A stretch of 64,000 nt of DNA, taken from assembly GCA_002239065.1 (NCBI GenBank), contig MPNO01000003.1:1-64000 (forward strand), given 5' to 3'. Source of the stretch: Defluviicoccus sp. bin129. Lineage in GTDB: Bacteria; Pseudomonadota; Alphaproteobacteria; MPNO01. Every line of letters starts with the position of its first letter. The first letter of the stretch is position 1. Shown in pieces: positions 5,103 through 41,340 of this stretch. The notes under the pieces are model-generated. The model searched no databases. It saw only the letters and a program-made list of their open reading frames with translations, and had not been told where the DNA came from. The position numbers were made by a program, and so were the translations under genes.

Positions 5103-6359
5103 TTGGCCGCAGGACACGCATCCGACATCGACGCGCGCTCGGCCCGCAGGGGCTGGGTCGTCGTGGCCGCGCTGTTCGCCATGCTCGGCATCGTGATCAC
5201 CGCGCGCAACGCGATCGGCCTCCTGATGCCCTATCTGAAGGACGATCTGGGCTGGAGCTATGGCCTGGTGTCGGCCGCCGGCGCGGCGATGCTGACCACC
5301 ATGGCGGTGATCGCGCCGGTCGCCGGGATGATGCTCGACCGCCACGGCCCCCGCGCGGTCTACGCCATCGGCATGGCGCTCGCCGCGCTCGCGCTCGGGC
5401 TGACCGCGCTGATGTCGGAGCCCTGGCAGCTGGTGCTGTGCTACGGCCTCGTCGGCGGCATCGGGTTCGCGGCGATTTCCCCCTCGCTGGTGTCGACCAC
5501 GGTGGCGGCGTATTTCGACCGCCGCCTCGGCCTCGCCACCGGCATCGCGACCTCGGGCAGCACCGCCGGGCAGATCGCCCTGATGCCGCTGCTCGCGCTG
5601 CTGATCGGGCTGTTCGGCTGGCGCTCGAGCCTGTGGATCGCCGCCGCCGCGGTGGTGGTCACCGCGGTCGCGGTCAACCTGCTGATCGGCCGGCGCGAGG
5701 CGGAAGCCGCCCGCCCGAGACCGGATCGGCGCGCGCGCCGGGGCTTTCTTGCCGTCTTCCGCGAGCTTGCCCGCCGGCCGATTTTCTGGCTGCTCGCCGG
5801 CGGCTTCGCGATCTGCGGTTTCACCACCGCCGGCGTGGTCAAGATCCACCTGATCCCCTACGCCGTCGCCTGCGGCTTCCCGGTGCTGGAAGGGGCCACC
5901 GCCTACGGCGTGCTCTCGGCCTTCAGCCTCGCCGGGCTGATCGGCTTCGGACATCTGTCCGACCGTTTCCACCGCCCCACGCTGCTCGCCTCGATCTACT
6001 TCATGCGCGGGCTCACCTTCCTCATTCTCATGCAGATCTCTGGCAGCACGCCGCTCCTGTTCGCATTCGCGGTGCTGTTCGGCAGCTTCGACTACGCCAC
6101 CTTCCCGATCGTCGCCGGCCTGGTCGCGAGCCATATGGGGCGGCACATCATGGGCTTCACGATGGGCCTGATCTTCGCCGCCCATTCGCTCGGCGGGGCC
6201 GCGGGGTCGTTCCTCGGCGGCTACCTGTTCGAGCTCTTCGCGCGCTACGACTGGGTCTGGATCGTGTCGCTGATACTCGCCTTCCTGGCCGCGTTCCTGT
6301 CGATCCTGATCCGCGACAGCCGCGGCCCCGGCCCGGCCCTCGCCACCGCCGGGGCCTGA
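5103..6359 (+). CDS. MFS transporter
   Basis: An inner-membrane major facilitator superfamily carrier, 418 residues, about 12 transmembrane segments. The first helix is VVVAALFAMLGIVITAR; the cytoplasmic loop 2-3 motif appears as DRHGPRAVYAIG. The central basic loop EAEAARPRPDRRARRG splits the two six-helix halves. It starts with TTG 5103 after a GGGGG stretch and stops directly before the ATG of the next MFS gene (TGA at 6357-6359, ATG at 6360), so the two are translationally coupled. The tandem pair could be two independent porters or a heteromeric unit. It resembles the monocarboxylate/oxalate-formate-type MFS; the substrate is unknown. Confidence 0.82.
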   Translation: MAAGHASDIDARSARRGWVVVAALFAMLGIVITARNAIGLLMPYLKDDLGWSYGLVSAAGAAMLTTMAVIAPVAGMMLDRHGPRAVYAIGMALAALALGLTALMSEPWQLVLCYGLVGGIGFAAISPSLVSTTVAAYFDRRLGLATGIATSGSTAGQIALMPLLALLIGLFGWRSSLWIAAAAVVVTAVAVNLLIGRREAEAARPRPDRRARRGFLAVFRELARRPIFWLLAGGFAICGFTTAGVVKIHLIPYAVACGFPVLEGATAYGVLSAFSLAGLIGFGHLSDRFHRPTLLASIYFMRGLTFLILMQISGSTPLLFAFAVLFGSFDYATFPIVAGLVASHMGRHIMGFTMGLIFAAHSLGGAAGSFLGGYLFELFARYDWVWIVSLILAFLAAFLSILIRDSRGPGPALATAGA

Positions 6360-8863: not shown

Positions 8864-10270
8864 TTGCGCTATGTGAGCACGCGCGGCGAGGCGCCGCCGC
8901 TCGGATTCGAGGACGTGCTGCTGAGCGGGCTCGCGCCCGATGGCGGCCTCTACGTGCCCGAATCCTGGCCCCGTTTCGACGCCCCGACGCTCGCCGGGTT
9001 CGCCGCGCTTCCCTATCACGAGGTCGCCGCCCGGCTCGTCGCCCCGTTCACCGAGCCCGACATCGACGAGGCGACGCTGGCCGGGATCGCCGCCGCCTCC
9101 TATGCCGGGTTCGACCATCCCGCGGTCGCCCCGCTGGTCCAGCTCGATTCCAACGACTGGCTGCTGGAGCTGTTTCACGGGCCCACCCTCGCCTTCAAGG
9201 ATTACGCGCTGCAGCTGGTCGGCCGGCTGTTCGATCACGCGCTCGCCCGGCGCGGCGAGCGCGTGACGATCGTCGCCGCGACCTCGGGCGATACCGGGTC
9301 GGCGGCGATCGAGGCCTGCCGCGACCGGGCCGGGATCGAGATCTTCGTGCTGCACCCGGAAGGGCGGGTGTCCGAGGTCCAGCGCCGCCAGATGACCACC
9401 GTCGATGCGGCCAACGTCCACAACATCGCCGTCGAGGGGACCTTCGACGACTGCCAGGACCTGGTGAAGGCGATGTTCGGCGACCCCCGTTTCCGCGCCG
9501 AATGCCGGCTGACCGCGGTAAACTCGATCAACTGGGCGCGGATCGCCGCCCAGGCGGTCTACTACGTCACCGCCGCGGTCGCGCTCGGCGCCCCCCACCG
9601 GCCGGTCGCGTTCTCGGTGCCCACGGGAAATTTCGGCAATGTCTTCGCCGGCTACGCCGCCCGCCGCATGGGCTTGCCGGTCGACCAGCTCGTCATCGCC
9701 ACCAACCGCAACGACATCCTCGCCCGCTTCCTGGAAACCGGGACCATGGAGATCGGCGAGGTGGTGCCGACCATCAGCCCCAGCATGGACATCCAGGTCT
9801 CGAGCAATTTCGAGCGCCTGCTGCACGACTTCGTGCGCCGCGACGGCGCCGCGGTGCGCCGGGCGCTGGACCGCTTCCGCCAGTCGGGGCGGATGACCGT
9901 GGCCGCGGTGACGATGGCGCGCATCGGCGAGCTGTTCGCCGCCGGCCCGCTGAGCGACGACGAGACCCGGCGCACCATCGCCGCGGTGTTCGACGGCGCG
10001 CATATCATGCTCGACCCGCACAGCGCCGTCGGCTACGGCGTCGGACGCGAGCGGCGGCGCGACCCCGAAATTCCGCTGATCGCGATGGCGACCGCGCATC
10101 CGGCCAAGTTCCCCGAAGCGGTGGAGACCGCGACCGGCGCCCGGCCGGACCTGCCGCCCCGCCTGGCCGCGGTGATGGCGCGGCCCGAACGGGTCGTGAC
10201 CATGGCCAACGACGTGGCGGCCATCAAGGCGCTGATGCGCGAGCGCATCGGTCTCAGGGGCGCGGCATGA
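8864..10270 (+). CDS. thrC: Threonine synthase
   Basis: Pyridoxal-phosphate enzyme converting O-phosphohomoserine to threonine, the last step of threonine synthesis; thrB lies about 5 kb away. The 468-residue protein has the ThrC N-terminus RYVSTRGEAPPLGFEDVLL, the PLP lysine K112 in HGPTLAFKDYALQ, the phosphate loop SGDTGSAA and the glycine loop PTGNFGNVFAG. TTG 8864 sits six bases after AAGGGAG and the family begins here; an in-frame GTG at 8807 would fall inside the promoter. The stop overlaps the M16 peptidase ATG by four bases (ATGA), an arrangement common in alphaproteobacteria. Confidence 0.95.
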   Translation: MRYVSTRGEAPPLGFEDVLLSGLAPDGGLYVPESWPRFDAPTLAGFAALPYHEVAARLVAPFTEPDIDEATLAGIAAASYAGFDHPAVAPLVQLDSNDWLLELFHGPTLAFKDYALQLVGRLFDHALARRGERVTIVAATSGDTGSAAIEACRDRAGIEIFVLHPEGRVSEVQRRQMTTVDAANVHNIAVEGTFDDCQDLVKAMFGDPRFRAECRLTAVNSINWARIAAQAVYYVTAAVALGAPHRPVAFSVPTGNFGNVFAGYAARRMGLPVDQLVIATNRNDILARFLETGTMEIGEVVPTISPSMDIQVSSNFERLLHDFVRRDGAAVRRALDRFRQSGRMTVAAVTMARIGELFAAGPLSDDETRRTIAAVFDGAHIMLDPHSAVGYGVGRERRRDPEIPLIAMATAHPAKFPEAVETATGARPDLPPRLAAVMARPERVVTMANDVAAIKALMRERIGLRGAA

Positions 10271-11541
10271 GCGTCGCCGCGACCGCGCTGGCCAACGGGG
10301 TCCGGGTCGTCACCCACCGCATGGCGAGCGTCGAGACGGTCTCGCTCGGCGCCTGGATCGATGTCGGGACGCGGCACGAGCGCGCGGACGTCAACGGCAT
10401 CGCCCATCTGGTCGAGCACATGGCGTTCAAGGGCACGGGCCGCCGCTCCGCCCGCGCGATCGCCGAGGAGATCGAATCGGTCGGCGGGCATCTCAACGCC
10501 TATACCTCGCGCGAGTTCACCGCCTTCCACGCCACCGTGCTCGGCGGCGACGAGGGTCTCGCGCTCGACATCGTCGCCGACATCCTGCAGCACGCCACGC
10601 TCGACCCCGAAGAGCTCGAACGCGAGCGGGCGGTCATCCTGCGCGAGATCGGCCAGAGCAGGGACACGCCGGAAGACGTCGTGTTCGACCGCTTCCAGGA
10701 GACCGCATATCCCGACCAGCCGGTCGGCCGTTCGACGCTGGGCACCCCGCAGCTCGTGGGCGCCATCGGCCGGGCGGCGCTGGTCGACTACATCGCCCGC
10801 TTCTACACCGCCGGGCGGATCGTCGTCGCGGCGGCCGGCAAGCTGGACCACGACGATTTCGCGCGCCGTGTCGAGGACGCTTTCGGCGGGCTTCGCGCCG
10901 ACGCGGTGCCGGCGCCCGAGCCCGCGGTCTATGCCGGCGGCGACAGCCGCGCGGTTCGCGACCTGGAACAGCTCCATCTGCTGCTCGGCCTGGAGGGCAT
11001 CGCGCATCGCGACCCCGACTATTATGCGCTCGCGGTGTTCTCGGCCGCGCTCGGCGGCGGCCTGTCCTCGCGGCTGTTCCAGGACATCAGGGAGGAGCGC
11101 GGGCTGGTCTACTCGATCTACAGCTTCAACTCGAGCTACGCCGATGGCGGGCTGTTCGGCATCTATGCCGGGACCGGCGCCGAGAGCGGGTCCGAGGTGG
11201 TCGAGCGGATCTGCGACAATCTGGGGACGATGGCCGACGAGGTCGAGGAAGCCGAGCTCGGCCGCGCCCGGGCGCAGCTCAAGGCGGGGATCCTGATGTC
11301 GCTGGAAAGCACCGCGTCGCGCGCCGAACAGATCGCGCGCCACATGCTGATCTTCGGCCGGGTGCTGGCGACCGGCGAGATCACCGAAGGGATCGACGCG
11401 GTGGACCGCAAGGCGGTGATGCGCATATCCGAACGCCTGCGCGCGGGCCGGCCGACCGTCGCGACGCTCGGCCCCGAGGCCGCGATACCGGGCTACGAGG
11501 AGATCGCTTCCCGGCTAGGCGCGCCCGGCGGTGCCCGATAG
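10267..11541 (+). CDS. M16 family zinc peptidase (mitochondrial processing peptidase-like)
   Basis: A 424-residue peptidase related to mitochondrial processing peptidase beta. The inverted zinc motif HxxEH is intact (H47, E50, H51 in [11 protein letters not shown]), so this is an active-type subunit. The distal glutamate lies in the ERAVILREI region near residue 127. The C-terminal half keeps the substrate-gripping block [16 protein letters not shown]. It overlaps thrC by ATGA and is presumably co-transcribed with it. Its 3' end overlaps the convergent algH gene by 27 bp. The substrate is not known. There is no signal peptide, which suggests a cytoplasmic protein. Confidence 0.9.
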
Positions 11542-18333: not shown

Positions 18334-18378
18334 GAGTGTGTCCGATCACCGGTCGGACGCTGCGCTACACAGACGACC

Positions 18379-18565
18379 CCCGCGGGAGAGTTCGGTCTCG
18401 GACCGGCGCCGAAGGAGCAAGGGCCCCGGAAACTCTCAGGCAAACGGACCGCGGGTTGATGTGTCTCTGGAAAGCGGGCCGCTCCGCCGCCAGGCGAGCG
18501 GTCCCACCGAAGGGGTAAGCGGGACGGAGCCGTCCCGTGATTCTCTCAGGTCCACGGACAGAGGG
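18379..18565 (+). ncRNA. Tandem glycine riboswitch
   Basis: Two glycine aptamers in series in the leader of gcvT. Aptamer 1 is closed by P1 CCCGCGG (18379-18385) with CCGCGGG (18449-18455) and holds the conserved GGAGAG, GCGCCGAAGGAGCAA and AACTCTCAGGCAAA...GGAC blocks. Aptamer 2 is closed by CTCTG (18465-18469) with CAGAG (18559-18563) and holds TCTGGAAAGCGGG, CCACCGAAGGGGTAAG and ATTCTCTCAGG...GGACAGAG. A seven-base linker separates them, the classic arrangement for these elements. In known cases glycine binding turns on the glycine-cleavage genes. Here the whole gcvT-H-PA-PB set and one extra dehydrogenase lie downstream. Confidence 0.95.
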
Positions 18566-18610: not shown

Positions 18611-19732
18611 ATGAGCGATCCCGAATCCGCTCCCGCCAGGCCGACCCCGCTGACCGGCCTGCACCGCGCGCTGGGCGCCAGGATGGCGCCGTTCGCCGGC
18701 TACGACATGCCGATCCACTATGCCCGCGGGATCATCGAGGAACACCTGCACACGCGAAGCGCGGCGTCGCTGTTCGACGTCTCGCATATGGGCCAGCTCA
18801 CGATCCGCGGCGCCGACCGGGCGGAGGCGCTGGAGGCTCTGGTGCCGGGCGACATCGCGGGGCTCGCCCCGGGACGGATGCGCTACACCGTGCTGACCGA
18901 CGAGGCGGGCGGCATCCTCGACGACCTGATCGTCACCAATGTCGGCGACTATCTTTTCGTCGTCGTCAACGCCGCCTGCAAGGACGCCGACATCGCCCAC
19001 ATGCGCGAGGCGCTGCCCGGGGGGTGCGCGGTCGAAGAGCTCGACCGCGGCCTCGTGGCGTTGCAGGGCCCGCAGGCGGCCGCCGTCCTCGCCCGGCTGG
19101 CGCCGGGCGCCGAGGCGCTCCCCTTCATGACCGCCGCGCCGTTCGAGATCGACGGCGCCAGGCTCGCGGTCACCCGGTCCGGCTATACCGGCGAGGACGG
19201 GTTCGAGATATCCATCCCGGCCGGGGACACCGAACGAATCGCCCGCATGCTGCTCGACCGGCCGGAGGTCGAACCGGCCGGTCTCGGCGCGCGCGACACG
19301 CTGCGGCTGGAGGCCGGGCTCTGCCTCTACGGCCAGGACATCGACCGAACCACGACGCCGGTCGAGGCCGGGCTCGCCTGGACCGTCGGCAGGCGCAGGC
19401 GGGCAGAGGGCGGCTTTCCCGGCGCCCGCGTCATCCTCGACCAGCTCGCCTCGGGGCCGCCGCGCCGCCGCGTCGGCATCCGGCCCGACGGCCGCGCCCC
19501 GGCGCGCGCGCATACCACGATCCGCGCGGTCGGCGGCGCGGCGATCGGCGAGATCACCAGCGGCAGCTTCGGGCCGAGCATAGGCGGCCCGGTGGCGATG
19601 GGCTATGTCGACGCCCGGGCGAGCGAAGCCGGAAGGGCGGTCGAGGTGGTGGTGCGCGACCGGCCGCTGCCGGCCCGCATCGCCGCGCTGCCATTCGTTC
19701 CGCACCGATATTTCACCGGCAAGGGAGGGTAG
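18611..19732 (+). CDS. gcvT: Glycine cleavage system aminomethyltransferase (T protein)
   Basis: Takes the aminomethyl group from lipoyl-GcvH and forms methylene-tetrahydrofolate and ammonia. The 373-residue protein has the folate-binding start [25 protein letters not shown], the LFDVSHMGQ motif, [19 protein letters not shown] and the catalytic aspartate region [15 protein letters not shown]. Its GGAGGA ribosome site is the likely target of the riboswitch expression platform. It is the first gene of gcvT-gcvH-gcvPA-gcvPB; the gcvH start lies four bases after its stop. Confidence 0.96.
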
Positions 19733-21475: not shown

Positions 21476-22983
21476 GCGCCGGGACGGGGGCGGACGGCAT
21501 CCGCCATCGCGGACTGCGATTCGAGGAGCAGCTGATCTTCGAACAGCACGCCGACGGGCGCACGGGCGTCGACCTGCCGGAGCCGCCGGCGGTCGCCGAC
21601 CGCCTCGGCGGGCTGGCGCGCGCGGCGCCGATCGGCCTGCCCGGGCTCTCCGAGCCCCAGGTGGTGCGCCATTTCACGCGGCTGAGCCAGAAGAACTACG
21701 CGATCGACAGCGGCCTCTACCCGCTCGGCTCCTGCACGATGAAGCACAACCCGCGGCTCAACGAAAAGCTCGCCAGGCTGCCGGGCTTCGCCGACATCCA
21801 CCCCTTGCAACCCCAATCCACCGTGCAGGGCGCGCTCGCCCTGATGGACCGGCTGGCCGGCTGGCTCCGGGCGCTCACCGGGATGCCGGCGATCGCTCTC
21901 TCCCCCGCCGCCGGCGCGCATGGCGAGTGGACCGGGCTGATGACCATCCGCTCGGCGCACGAGGCGGCGGGCGATGCGAGAAAGCGCGTGCTGGTGCCCG
22001 ATTCCGCGCACGGCACCAACCCGGCGAGCGCCGCGATGTGCGGCTACGAGGTCGCCGCGGTGCCGCTGAACGCGCGCGGGCGGGTCGATCTTGCGGCGCT
22101 GAAATCCGCGCTCGACGGCGATGTCGCGGCCTTCATGCTGACCAACCCCAATACCTGCGGGCTGTTCGAGGACGAGATCCTGGAGCAGGCCGGGGCGGTG
22201 CGCGAAGCGGGCGCCTATTTCTACTCCGACGGCGCCAATTTCAACGCCATCGTCGGCCGGGTGCGGCCCGGCGATCTCGGCATCGACTGCATGCATCTCA
22301 ACCTGCACAAGACGTTCTCGACGCCGCATGGCGGCGGCGGTCCGGGCAGCGGCCCGATCGCGCTCTCGGAAGCGCTCGCGCCCTTCGCGCCGGTGCCCTA
22401 CGTGGTCGGCGGGCCGGACGGTTTCCGGCTGGTCGAGCACGATGGCGGGGCCGCCTTCGGCCGGGTCAAGCGCTTCCACGGCCAGATGGGCATGTTCGTC
22501 CGGGCGCTCGCCTACATCTTGAGCCACGGCATCGACGGGCTGCGCCAGGCCTCCTCGGATGCGGTGCTCAACGCCAACTACGTGTCGGCCGGGCTGGCCG
22601 ATTTGATGAGCCTGCCTTATGACGGCCCCTGCATGCACGAGGTGCTGTTCGACGACGCCTTCCTCAAGGACACCGGCGTGAGCACGCTCGACCTCGCCAA
22701 GGCGATGATCGACGAGGGCTACCACCCGGCGACCATCTACTTCCCGCTGGTGGTGCATGGCGCGCTCCTGCTCGAGCCCACCGAGACCGAGTCGCGCGAA
22801 AGCCTCGACCACCTGGTCGCCACGCTCAGGGGGATCGTCCGGCGCGCGCTGGCGGGCGAGGCCGATGCGTTCCACGCCGCGCCGGCGCACGCGCCCCGCC
22901 GCCGCTTCGACGAGACCGCCGCCGCGCGCCGCCCGGTCTTGCGCTGGCGCCCCCCGGGGGCGGAAGATCAGGCCGCCGAATGA
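21472..22983 (+). CDS. gcvPB: Glycine dehydrogenase (decarboxylating) subunit 2
   Basis: PLP-binding half of the split P protein, 503 residues. The Schiff-base lysine is K280 in [21 protein letters not shown]. The block [21 protein letters not shown] and the [17 protein letters not shown] loop are diagnostic. The start GTG 21472 overlaps the gcvPA stop; the stop overlaps the ATG of the next dehydrogenase gene by ATGA, so the operon extends beyond the cleavage system. The C-terminal tail (about residues 460-503) is alanine- and arginine-rich and looks poorly conserved. Confidence 0.96.
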
Positions 22984-23891
22984 GCGGGGGAGGAGAGACG
23001 GTGGAACGCAGTTTCGGGCTGGTCGGCGCGGGAATCATGGGCAAGGGGCTCACCCGCAACCTGTTGGCGCAGGGCTTCGAACTCTCGGTCTTCGACAGCG
23101 ACCCGGCGGCCATGGAGCGCGCCGCCGGCATGGGGGCCAGGCCGGCGAACGGGCTCGCCGGGCTGTGCGCGGCGACGACGACGATCGGCACCTGCCTGCA
23201 AAGCATCGATGCGATCCGCGCGGTCTATCTCGGGCCGGACGGGCTGATCGCCAACGCGCGCGAGGGGAGCGTGCTGGTCGACTTCTCGACCAGCGACCCC
23301 GCGGTGACGCGCGAGCTCGCGGAACAGGCGGCGGTCCGGTCGGTGCAGGTGATCGACGCGCCGATGCTGCGCATGGAGCAGCACGCCTGGGAGGGCACCA
23401 TCGTGCTCCTGGTCGGTGGCCCGGAGGAGGTCGTCGAGCGCTGCCGCCCCGCCTTCGAGGCGGTCTCCGAACGCTTCGTCCATTGCGGTCCGGTCGGCGC
23501 GGGCCATACCTTCAAGCTGCTCAACAACGTCAACGGGCTCTGCATGCACGCGATGTATGCCGAGACCTTCGCGCTGGCGACCAAGCTCGGGGTCGATCTC
23601 GACCGGCTGCTGGAGGTGCTCTCCAGCGGCATGTCGAACAGCACCATCCTGGGCGCGCTGTCGAAGCGCATCCTCACCGGCGAGGACGGGCCGGTCTTCG
23701 CCACCGAGGTCGCGCTCAAGGACGTCTCGCTGTTCGCCAAGCTCGCCGCCGACACCAAATCGCCGTCGCTGCTGGCGAGCGCGACGCGCGAGGTCTACCA
23801 GCTCACCACGCTGCTGGGCTATGGCGACAAGGACGTGGTCTCGGTCGGCGCCGCGCTGCGCTCCATCTCGCTCGGCGAGCGGGCGGGCTAG
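22980..23891 (+). CDS. 3-hydroxyisobutyrate dehydrogenase-family protein
   Basis: A 303-residue NAD(P)-dependent beta-hydroxyacid dehydrogenase. The Rossmann motif GxGxxG is GAGIMG (residues 16-21). The catalytic lysine is K179 in GHTFKLLNN, with N183 following. The substrate loop, usually DAPVSGG, reads DAPMLRMEQHAWEGT here, so the substrate probably differs from hydroxyisobutyrate or tartronate semialdehyde. ATGA overlap with gcvPB makes it the fifth gene of the riboswitch-controlled operon. A link to glycine or serine metabolism, such as reduction of a small aldehyde acid, is inference. Confidence 0.85.
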   Translation: MSGGGETVERSFGLVGAGIMGKGLTRNLLAQGFELSVFDSDPAAMERAAGMGARPANGLAGLCAATTTIGTCLQSIDAIRAVYLGPDGLIANAREGSVLVDFSTSDPAVTRELAEQAAVRSVQVIDAPMLRMEQHAWEGTIVLLVGGPEEVVERCRPAFEAVSERFVHCGPVGAGHTFKLLNNVNGLCMHAMYAETFALATKLGVDLDRLLEVLSSGMSNSTILGALSKRILTGEDGPVFATEVALKDVSLFAKLAADTKSPSLLASATREVYQLTTLLGYGDKDVVSVGAALRSISLGERAG

Positions 23892-23995
23892 GCGGGCGCG
23901 AGATCGCCCCACGCGTTCCGGCGTCCCGGAGGGCCGCCCGGGCGGTCTGTCGAGGGCTCCCCGGGGGGCGCGAAAATAGTACCGTTTCGGGACAA
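23892..23995. other. Intergenic GC-rich stretch before parS
   Basis: No gene is supported here. It holds the self-complementary CCGCCCGGGCGG at 23934-23945 and a CCCC/GGGG stem nearby (about 23958-23971), either of which could help end the gcv transcript, then the A-rich CGAAAATAGTACCG just before the parS site. Confidence 0.5.
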
Positions 23996-24011
23996 TGTTT
24001 CACGTGAAACA
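23996..24011. other. parS centromere-like site
   Basis: TGTTTCACGTGAAACA is a perfect 16-bp palindrome and an exact match to the chromosomal parS consensus bound by ParB. ParB loaded here spreads and organises the origin region for segregation. It lies in a non-coding gap between the glycine-cleavage operon and a tRNA-Thr gene. No parA or parB gene is in the window. Known parS sites cluster near the replication origin, so this region is probably within the origin domain. A chance match is unlikely in such GC-rich DNA. Confidence 0.92.
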
Positions 24012-24070
24012 ATGGTCAGCATCGTTGACCTATTTCCTCGACGCAAAATCCGCCTGGCGCGCCGGGCGGG

Positions 24071-24146
24071 TGGTGCCGGATGTCCGATTCGAACGGACGA
24101 CCTGCTGATTACAAATCAGCCGCTCTGCCAGCTGAGCTAATCCGGC
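24071..24146 (-). tRNA. tRNA-Thr (anticodon TGT)
   Basis: A 76-nt cloverleaf on the minus strand. The acceptor GCCGGAT pairs with ATCCGGC, the D-loop reads AGCTCAGCTGGCAGAGC, the anticodon stem GCTGA/TCAGC closes the loop TTTGTAA with anticodon TGT, and the T-arm is GTCCGTTCGAATCGGAC. Discriminator A and an encoded CCA (24071-24073) complete it. It reads ACA codons. It lies between parS and the ring-opening hydrolase operon. Confidence 0.97.
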
Positions 24147-24244: not shown

Positions 24245-25354
24245 ATGGCCATAGTCGTCCGCAAGGTTGCGATGGAGCATGTCCAGGACACCGCCGGCAT
24301 CGAGGCGGCGATGGCGGAGGAGGGGTTCGGCGTCGACGACATCGTGGCGCTGGTCGCCAAGACCGAGGGCAATGGCGGGGTCAACGATTTCGGCCGCATC
24401 CTGGTCGACCGGGTGCTGCGCGACTTCCTGGTGCGCGAGGGCAGCGGAGGACGCGAGGCGGCGATGCGGGTGCCGATCGCGCTGTCGGGCGGCTGTCCCG
24501 GGATCATCGCGCCGCATATCAACGTGTTCGCCCGCGTCGACGACCCCGACCCCGACCCGGAGGCCGAACGCCTCGCCATCGGCATCGCCATGTCGGAAGC
24601 CATCGCGCCCGAAGACATCGGCCGGCCCGCGGGAGTCGAGAAGGTCGCCGGGGGCGTCCGGCGCGCGATGAAGGACGCCGGCATCGAGGATGCGTCCGAC
24701 ATCCACTACGTGCAGTCCAAGTCCCCTTTGCTCACCACCGAGAGCATCGCCGAAGCCAAGTCGCGGGGCCATACGGTGGCCACCGAGGAGACCATGGAAT
24801 CGATGTCGATCGCCAACGCCACGGCGGCGCTCGGCATCGGCTACGCGCTCGGCGAGATCCCGATGCCGCGCGAGGACCAGATCGGCCGCGACTTCGACCT
24901 CTACTCCTCGGTCGCGTCGTGCTCCAGCGGCAACGAGCAGATGGAGGCGCAGATCGTTGTGGTCGGCAACCGCAAAGGCGTCGGCGGGCGGTTCCGCATC
25001 GGCCATTCGGTGATGAAGGACGCGATCGACACCGACGGCATCTACGAGGCGATCCGCAACGCCGGGCTGACTCTGCCGGACCGGCCGCACCCGTCGGATC
25101 TGGGCGACGCGGTGGTCAACTGCTTCGTCAAATGCGAGACCGATCCGACCGGGCGGCTACGCGGCAGGCGGCAGGTCTCGCTCAACGATTCCGACGTTCA
25201 CCACACCCTGACGACAAAGGCAACGGTGGGCGGGGTGGTCGCCGCCGCGCTCGGCGACCCGGCCGTCTTCGTCTCGGTCGCGGCGCTGCAGCAGGGGCCG
25301 GCCGGCGGCGGCATGGTGGCCGCCATCGTCGACATGGACAGGGTGCCCGGCTAG
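24245..25354 (+). CDS. Ring-opening amidohydrolase (cyanuric acid hydrolase/barbiturase family)
   Basis: A 369-residue member of the AtzD/TrzD/barbiturase family, which hydrolyses a C-N bond in cyclic amides. The fold is three repeated domains, each giving a Lys-Ser pair: K39 (AKTEGNGGVNDF) with S81 (LSGGCPGIIAPH); K159 (VQSKSPLLT) with S225 (SSVASCSSGNEQ); and K296 (CFVKCETD) with S344 (VFVSVAALQQGPAGGG). The third loop departs from the SGGAEHQGP form I recall in cyanurate hydrolases, so the substrate may differ. GGGAGA precedes ATG 24245. FdrA- and YlbE-like genes follow, which suggests carbamoyl handling after ring opening. Confidence 0.85.
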   Translation: MAIVVRKVAMEHVQDTAGIEAAMAEEGFGVDDIVALVAKTEGNGGVNDFGRILVDRVLRDFLVREGSGGREAAMRVPIALSGGCPGIIAPHINVFARVDDPDPDPEAERLAIGIAMSEAIAPEDIGRPAGVEKVAGGVRRAMKDAGIEDASDIHYVQSKSPLLTTESIAEAKSRGHTVATEETMESMSIANATAALGIGYALGEIPMPREDQIGRDFDLYSSVASCSSGNEQMEAQIVVVGNRKGVGGRFRIGHSVMKDAIDTDGIYEAIRNAGLTLPDRPHPSDLGDAVVNCFVKCETDPTGRLRGRRQVSLNDSDVHHTLTTKATVGGVVAAALGDPAVFVSVAALQQGPAGGGMVAAIVDMDRVPG

Positions 25355-29476: not shown

Positions 29477-30667
<1,191 letters not shown>

Positions 30668-30692: not shown

Positions 30693-31001
30693 ATGGACAA
30701 CCAGAACATACGCATCCGCCTCAAGGCGTTCGATCACCGGGTGCTCGACCAGTCGACCGGCGAAATCGTCAACACGGCGAAACGCACCGGCGCCGAGGTG
30801 CGCGGGCCGATCCCGCTGCCGACGCGGATCGAGAAGTTCACCGTGCTGCGCTCGCCCCATATCGACAAGAAGTCGCGCGAACAGTTCGAGATCCGCACCC
30901 ACAAGCGGCTGCTCGACATCATCGATCCGACGCCGCAGACGGTGGACGCGCTGATGAAGCTCGACCTCGCCGCCGGCGTCGATGTCGAGATCAAGCTCTG
31001 A
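30693..31001 (+). CDS. rpsJ: 30S ribosomal protein S10
   Basis: Head protein of the small subunit and NusE transcription antitermination factor, 102 residues, canonical length. It contains [19 protein letters not shown] and the loop sequence [26 protein letters not shown]. It is the first gene of the S10 operon, 25 bases after tuf. No own promoter stands out in the short gap. Confidence 0.98.

Positions 31002-39996: not shown

Positions 39997-41336
<1,340 letters not shown>

Positions 41337-41340
<4 letters not shown>

Follow-up and report, generated by a model that had tools for sequence, protein, structure and literature searches.

The 64,000-nucleotide stretch of Defluviicoccus sp. bin129 considered here (the window; contig MPNO01000003.1, positions 1 to 64,000) is included in a 157-kb contig (C13) with 70% G+C. 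Between a gene for an NAD-binding oxidoreductase and a gene for tRNA-Thr, it carries a parS site, the centromeric sequence bound by the chromosome segregation protein ParB. This site, TGTTTCACGTGAAACA at 23996-24011, agrees with the ParB-binding consensus at 16 of 16 positions, without a mismatch. It is intergenic, with a gap of 104 bp separating it from the stop codon of the oxidoreductase gene upstream and one of 60 bp from the tRNA gene's 3' end. The window holds no other match at up to three mismatches, and the site is not attributable to chance, since only 0.02 matches are expected per window. The start of tuf lies 5.5 kb downstream of parS and that of rpsJ (S10) 6.7 kb downstream, in a ribosomal block that continues beyond secY. 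The original prediction, which described a perfect parS site in a non-coding gap next to tRNA-Thr and within 20 kb of the tuf/S10 operons, was right on these points, and the identification of parS is in itself ordinary and correct. The site was also taken to mark the origin domain. However, rather than being a solitary marker of the origin, it is one of many copies.

The assembly containing the window (G000; 4.83 Mb in 122 contigs, 89% complete) has 23 perfect parS sites in 21 places on 16 contigs, together with three near matches. Four other species of the same genus, G001, G002, G003 and G004, hold 35, 52, 22 and 35 perfect sites, respectively. Two are present in the only other genus of the family (a 79% complete assembly). 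The order's other 21 genomes have between zero and four each, and most of 241 Alphaproteobacteria have zero to three. The 10- to 20-fold expansion of the composite module described below is confined to one genus.

More than five perfect sites were also found elsewhere among the 241 Alphaproteobacteria, namely in G221 (78), G207 (18), G199 (13), G031 (nine), and G036 and G265 (seven each). For example, G221, a member of family f116, has its 78 sites on nearly every listed contig (C1-C8, C10-C12) of a 1.8-Mb draft, some of them tandemly arrayed with a spacing of exactly 37 bp, including six in a row at C5:85888-86088. This expansion is independent of, and larger than, that of the Defluviicoccus genus. 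In G207, a single contig (C1, 2.8 Mb) carries eight sites within 5 kb (1.812-1.817 Mb) and ten others around the whole chromosome. Dispersed parS therefore does occur in Alphaproteobacteria.

Alignment of the flanks revealed that most parS copies in the genus are fused to a second palindrome, IR2, with the 21-bp consensus W AGGTCA N7 TGACCT W. The complete module has the form parS-IR2-parS, in which a distance of exactly 37 bp separates the two parS starts throughout the genus. In G001, G002 and G004, the mnmE-mnmG locus has a triple parS with two spacers. Palindromes resembling IR2 (at most one mismatch) number 19 in G000. Fourteen adjoin parS or a near-parS, and the remaining five (on C23, C27, C30, C65 and C120) look like chance matches. 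A repeat arm, AATAGTACCGTTTCGGGAC, is present in six copies in G000, every one beside parS. A scan of roughly 85,000 species genomes for parS-NN-GGTCAN7TGACC returned matches only in metagenome-assembled genomes of this group, labelled Defluviicoccus sp., plus one labelled 'Alphaproteobacteria bacterium bin52'. The module was absent from the viral contigs, plasmids and phages searched, and an origin in such elements was rejected, as no match was found in those collections.

Both palindromes appear to be constrained. When 11 long copies of the module-bearing repeat were aligned, divergence (the mean pairwise difference) was 0.000 and 0.011 for the two parS sites, and 0.000 at all AGGTCA/TGACCT half-site positions of IR2. 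The corresponding values were 0.34 for the 7-bp IR2 loop, 0.18 for the repeat body and ~0.5 for the flanks, and in 20,000 draws no pair of 16-bp blocks from the repeat body was as conserved as parS. The copies are thus old enough to have diverged while both palindromes were maintained, which suggests that parS and IR2 alike are under selection. Conserved half-sites around a free centre, as seen in IR2, fit a binding site for a dimeric protein.

Palindromes close to genes could also function at the RNA level, as small hairpins just after stop codons that form a 3'-end or terminator-like structure. In line with this, the element directly adjoins the stop codon of a gene at 16 of 66 places, and parS and IR2 can fold as hairpins. 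However, the fold is not clearly better than that of shuffled sequences (z=-1.5), covariation contributes 0.7 of -100 kcal/mol (alifold, long copies) with pairs that are mostly invariant, no Rfam family comes near its gathering score, and no T run follows the hairpins. Given the lack of covariation, a fold that does not stand out and W positions that are often non-complementary, a cruciform or an RNA is less likely, and an RNA element in particular is highly improbable.

The module is carried by a short interspersed repeat. When 2.4 kb around the window parS was used as a query, its 979-1054 part (window 23958-24033) matched dozens of places in the congeners. The repeat is ~75 bp long in G000 and ~250 bp in G001 and G002, where about ten copies reach leftward to a common end, TGTYAACCAYAGTTGACA, and finish at the parS pair. 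The same left end is also found once in G004. Multiple dispersed copies with common ends are therefore present, the left end being shared only among the long copies.

The window copy is not a fixed landmark, as it is absent from a sister species. In G003, the closest species (flanks 91-92% identical), the oxidoreductase gene runs straight to the tRNA region, and 175 bp containing the repeat are missing. The two alignments at this locus (G003:C93 9012-9919 with query 1-908, and 9912-11204 with query 1084-2375) overlap by 8 bp, CGGGCGGG, which is present on both sides of the stretch in the window. A gain in G000 and a loss in G003 are indistinguishable from these sequences. In G001 and G002, 16-18 kb separate the oxidoreductase gene from the tRNA-side genes, and a copy in a different orientation lies close to the tRNA side. 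At another locus, a G003 copy (L044:917) joins the left flank of G000 L014:7738 with the inverted left flank of L004:8292, a junction that is consistent with rearrangement by recombination between parS repeats. Some module positions have been kept between species, since the G000 copies at L006, L007, L009, L011 (two), L014, L015 (two) and L016 each match orthologous places in a congener on one flank or both.

These observations raise the question of whether a selfish or neutral repeat, similar to repetitive extragenic palindromic (REP) sequences or miniature inverted-repeat transposable elements (MITEs), captured the parS module and is propagated through insertion or gene conversion, with ParB binding either incidental or exploited for retention. 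A dispersed family with a shared arm, longer copies (~250 bp) that have their left end in common, a site that is filled in G000 but vacant in G003 and whose junction shows an 8-bp repeat, and the rearrangement at the G003 copy would all be in keeping with this. REP sequences, bacterial interspersed mosaic elements (BIMEs) and MITE-type repeats are likewise short, extragenic, dispersed and palindromic, and vary in presence between species. They differ in that the core of the genus repeat is a known type of protein-binding site, which is kept invariant while the rest of the old copies diverges by ~18%. Many positions are also common to several species, and an unamplified module exists in another family. 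Furthermore, neither a transposase partner, for which no search was made, nor a consistent target duplication was identified: no duplication was seen by eye in the long copies, and the 8-bp repeat occurs only at the window copy. A purely selfish or neutral origin is thus rather unlikely, but it is the most credible of the alternatives.

Some copies of the repeat are associated with further sequences. In G000, L002 and L013 run past the element into a promoter-like TTGACA...TATATT, followed ~40 nt later by a short hairpin-plus-T terminator, and it is possible that this extension is a tiny RNA unit duplicated along with the repeat. In G002, a different interspersed repeat, AGATAACTCGACGGGCGG, adjoins some modules (L045 ~2795-2830 and L047 ~5310-5340).

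To look beyond the genus, 386 Alphaproteobacteria were screened for parS-N10..40-parS, and 16 of the genomes had close pairs. Two genomes of the unrelated family f30, G052 and G161, contain parS-N21-parS once each, with the spacers TTGGACAGAATGATTGACCTA and TTAGACAACACAACTGACCTA. These match 12 and 11 of the 14 fixed IR2 positions, respectively, for which the expectation among random 21-mers is ~1.4e-5 and 1.1e-4. In addition, one parS-IR2 (12/14) follows immediately downstream of parB in bin52. With the module present in another family and single in bin52, it probably predates its amplification. The commonest pitch was 37 bp, found in four of 14 lineages with close parS pairs (p ~0.0008 against a uniform range), but this recurrence is suggestive only, as the lineages were grouped by family after the data had been seen. 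It includes lineages without IR2 (G211 and G221). For instance, a parS pair in G211 (C2:25560-25612) is spaced at 37 bp around an unrelated sequence. The literature searched yielded no paper that describes interspersed repeats carrying parS or a pitch of 37 bp.

The genome containing the window encodes one canonical ParB (C53:10136-11020, in L006), which scores 195 bits to TIGR00180 and 227 bits to Caulobacter ParB 6t1f. It is accompanied by ParA and rsmG-mnmG, with three parS sites nearby, one of them at the start of rsmG. C76 carries another module, 1.5 kb upstream of dnaA-dnaN, with gyrB further along, and parS copies occur on 14 other contigs. The copies are locally clustered, with six pairs within 10 kb in G000 (0.85 expected, p=0.0005) and six in G001 (1.55 expected, p=0.003). 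Distance from the origin was estimated by synteny with G011, a one-contig genome of the same order, of which half was used and in which anchors were few and rearranged. Its origin was set at its parAB (2.77 Mb), and its terminus lies near 0.25 Mb by GC skew. With multi-gene anchors, the median normalised origin distance was 0.29 for parS blocks and 0.77 for controls (4 vs 8, p=0.036). With a wider anchor set, the values were 0.35 and 0.48 (12 vs 15, p=0.13).

Local clustering, the copies at dnaA and parAB, and the first of these anchor tests would agree with an ordinary origin-proximal parS array, in which all copies belong to one ParB domain around oriC and look scattered due to the 122-contig draft. 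Yet the lack of a significant difference with the wider anchor set, the presence of a single copy in the whole 64-kb window, and the distribution of parS all round the one-contig chromosome of G207 make such an array improbable. Multi-parS arrays in Streptomyces coelicolor and Listeria innocua are similar in that many parS sites are attributed to one ParB. However, those arrays are reported near the origin (PMC7333895, PMC5815017), whereas a place within the origin domain is no more than possible for the genus copies, which also share a flanking repeat and a second palindrome. For the window copy, membership of that domain is plausible but unproven. The remark in the original prediction that translation genes close to the origin fit gene-dosage expectations is reasonable as background, but this site does not bear on it. 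The original prediction regarded many scattered matches, or a position near the terminus, as arguments against it. Matches are indeed numerous and on many contigs, yet they are clustered and some sit at dnaA and parAB. On G011, the block left of the window parS is placed at 0.69 of the distance from origin to terminus, but gene order is poorly conserved and this placement is uncertain.

Weak ParB-like small frames (114-285 aa) are also present in all five genomes of the genus (G000:C104:32627-32824, G001:C15, G002:C162, G003:C117 and G004:C157), and the one in G002 sits 3 kb from a parS module. These frames are possible candidates for a partner.

Based on sequence comparison, the window site probably forms part of a composite centromere module, parS-IR2(-parS), copies of which have multiplied on short interspersed repeats in the genus. 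Nucleation of ParB at parS, its closure as a cytidine triphosphate (CTP) clamp, sliding, and recruitment of ParA and SMC are established in other species. In this genus, each parS would nucleate the single chromosomal ParB, which would close as a CTP clamp, slide into the flanking DNA, and feed ParA-driven segregation and SMC loading. A putative dimeric protein on IR2 may act together with ParB, beside or between ParB dimers. Copies could have spread by repeat duplication or insertion, with the repeat as the vehicle that multiplies the module, and could have persisted at places that benefit from, or tolerate, additional ParB loading, resulting in an enlarged, multi-focus ParB domain. A bolder proposal, which is attractive but tentative, is that of an alphaproteobacterial centromere with a second component. 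Here, a dimeric protein would bind IR2 between ParB sites 37 bp (3.5 helical turns) apart, in an arrangement kept across families and multiplied tens of times in one genus, with the pitch tuning ParB loading or SMC recruitment.

Several points weigh against interpreting the site as part of an expanded centromere. The window copy consists of arm, parS and IR2, with the second parS missing. Its presence in one species and absence from another, as well as repeat-mediated rearrangement, fit a mobile or neutral repeat too, and the synteny and clustering tests did not demonstrate proximity to the origin for most copies. Caulobacter tolerates an additional parS cluster mainly when it lies close to the native cluster (PMC5815017), and a scattered distribution of parS is regarded as working against SMC traffic (PMC8357415). 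As widely spread parS is costly in other bacteria (PMC5815017, PMC8357415), not every copy need be used.

Compared with the chromosomal ParABS centromeres of Caulobacter, Bacillus and Streptomyces, the genus has the identical parS (TGTTTCACGTGAAACA), canonical ParA and ParB beside mnmG-rsmG, and some copies at dnaA and parAB. It differs in its 22-52 perfect copies, compared with 20-23 in the high-number species that a review mentions (PMC7333895), and in that these copies are composite with IR2, have a fixed 37-bp pitch, and lie on dispersed repeats. While the parS system itself is known, the composite module, its constraint and its expansion are new. How centromeres gain parS sites and why their numbers vary have been stated as an open question (PMC5815017, PMC7333895). 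The rise from ~2 to 22-52 sites via a defined module provides a concrete route of centromere expansion that can be traced species by species. It also reveals IR2 as a second, equally constrained palindrome, and a pitch that recurs in 4/14 of the lineages with close parS pairs.

Table 1. Features of the window at and around the parS site.
Feature	Position	Strand	Remarks
Perfect parS, TGTTTCACGTGAAACA	23996..24011	.	16/16 consensus match
IR2, second palindrome, A TGGTCA GCATCGT TGACCT A, 21 bp	24012..24032	.	consensus WAGGTCAN7TGACCTW
Repeat arm, AATAGTACCGTTTCGGGAC	23975..23993	+	6 copies in genome, all beside parS
Whole repeat unit, arm + parS + IR2	23958..24033	+	as recognised in related genomes
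175-bp stretch containing the repeat	23888..24062	.	absent at same locus of G003
8-bp direct repeat CGGGCGGG bounding the 175-bp stretch	23880-23887 and 24063-24070		
tRNA-Thr (TGT)	24071..24146	-	
3-hydroxyisobutyrate dehydrogenase-like NAD-binding oxidoreductase	22980..23891	+	below curated cut-offs
AtzD/TrzD-type ring-opening amidohydrolase (cyanuric acid amidohydrolase family)	24245..25354	+	415.8 bits, cut-off 153
tuf (EF-Tu), start of S10 region	29477..30667	+	
rpsJ/S10	30693-31001		
secY	39997-41340		

Other RNA features were noted further upstream in the window. ARAGORN called a 96-nt tRNA-Gly(acc) at 10282-10377, which was not reported by Rfam and is probably spurious. A tandem glycine riboswitch (18373-18563) is located directly upstream of a gcvT-like gene (18611-19732).
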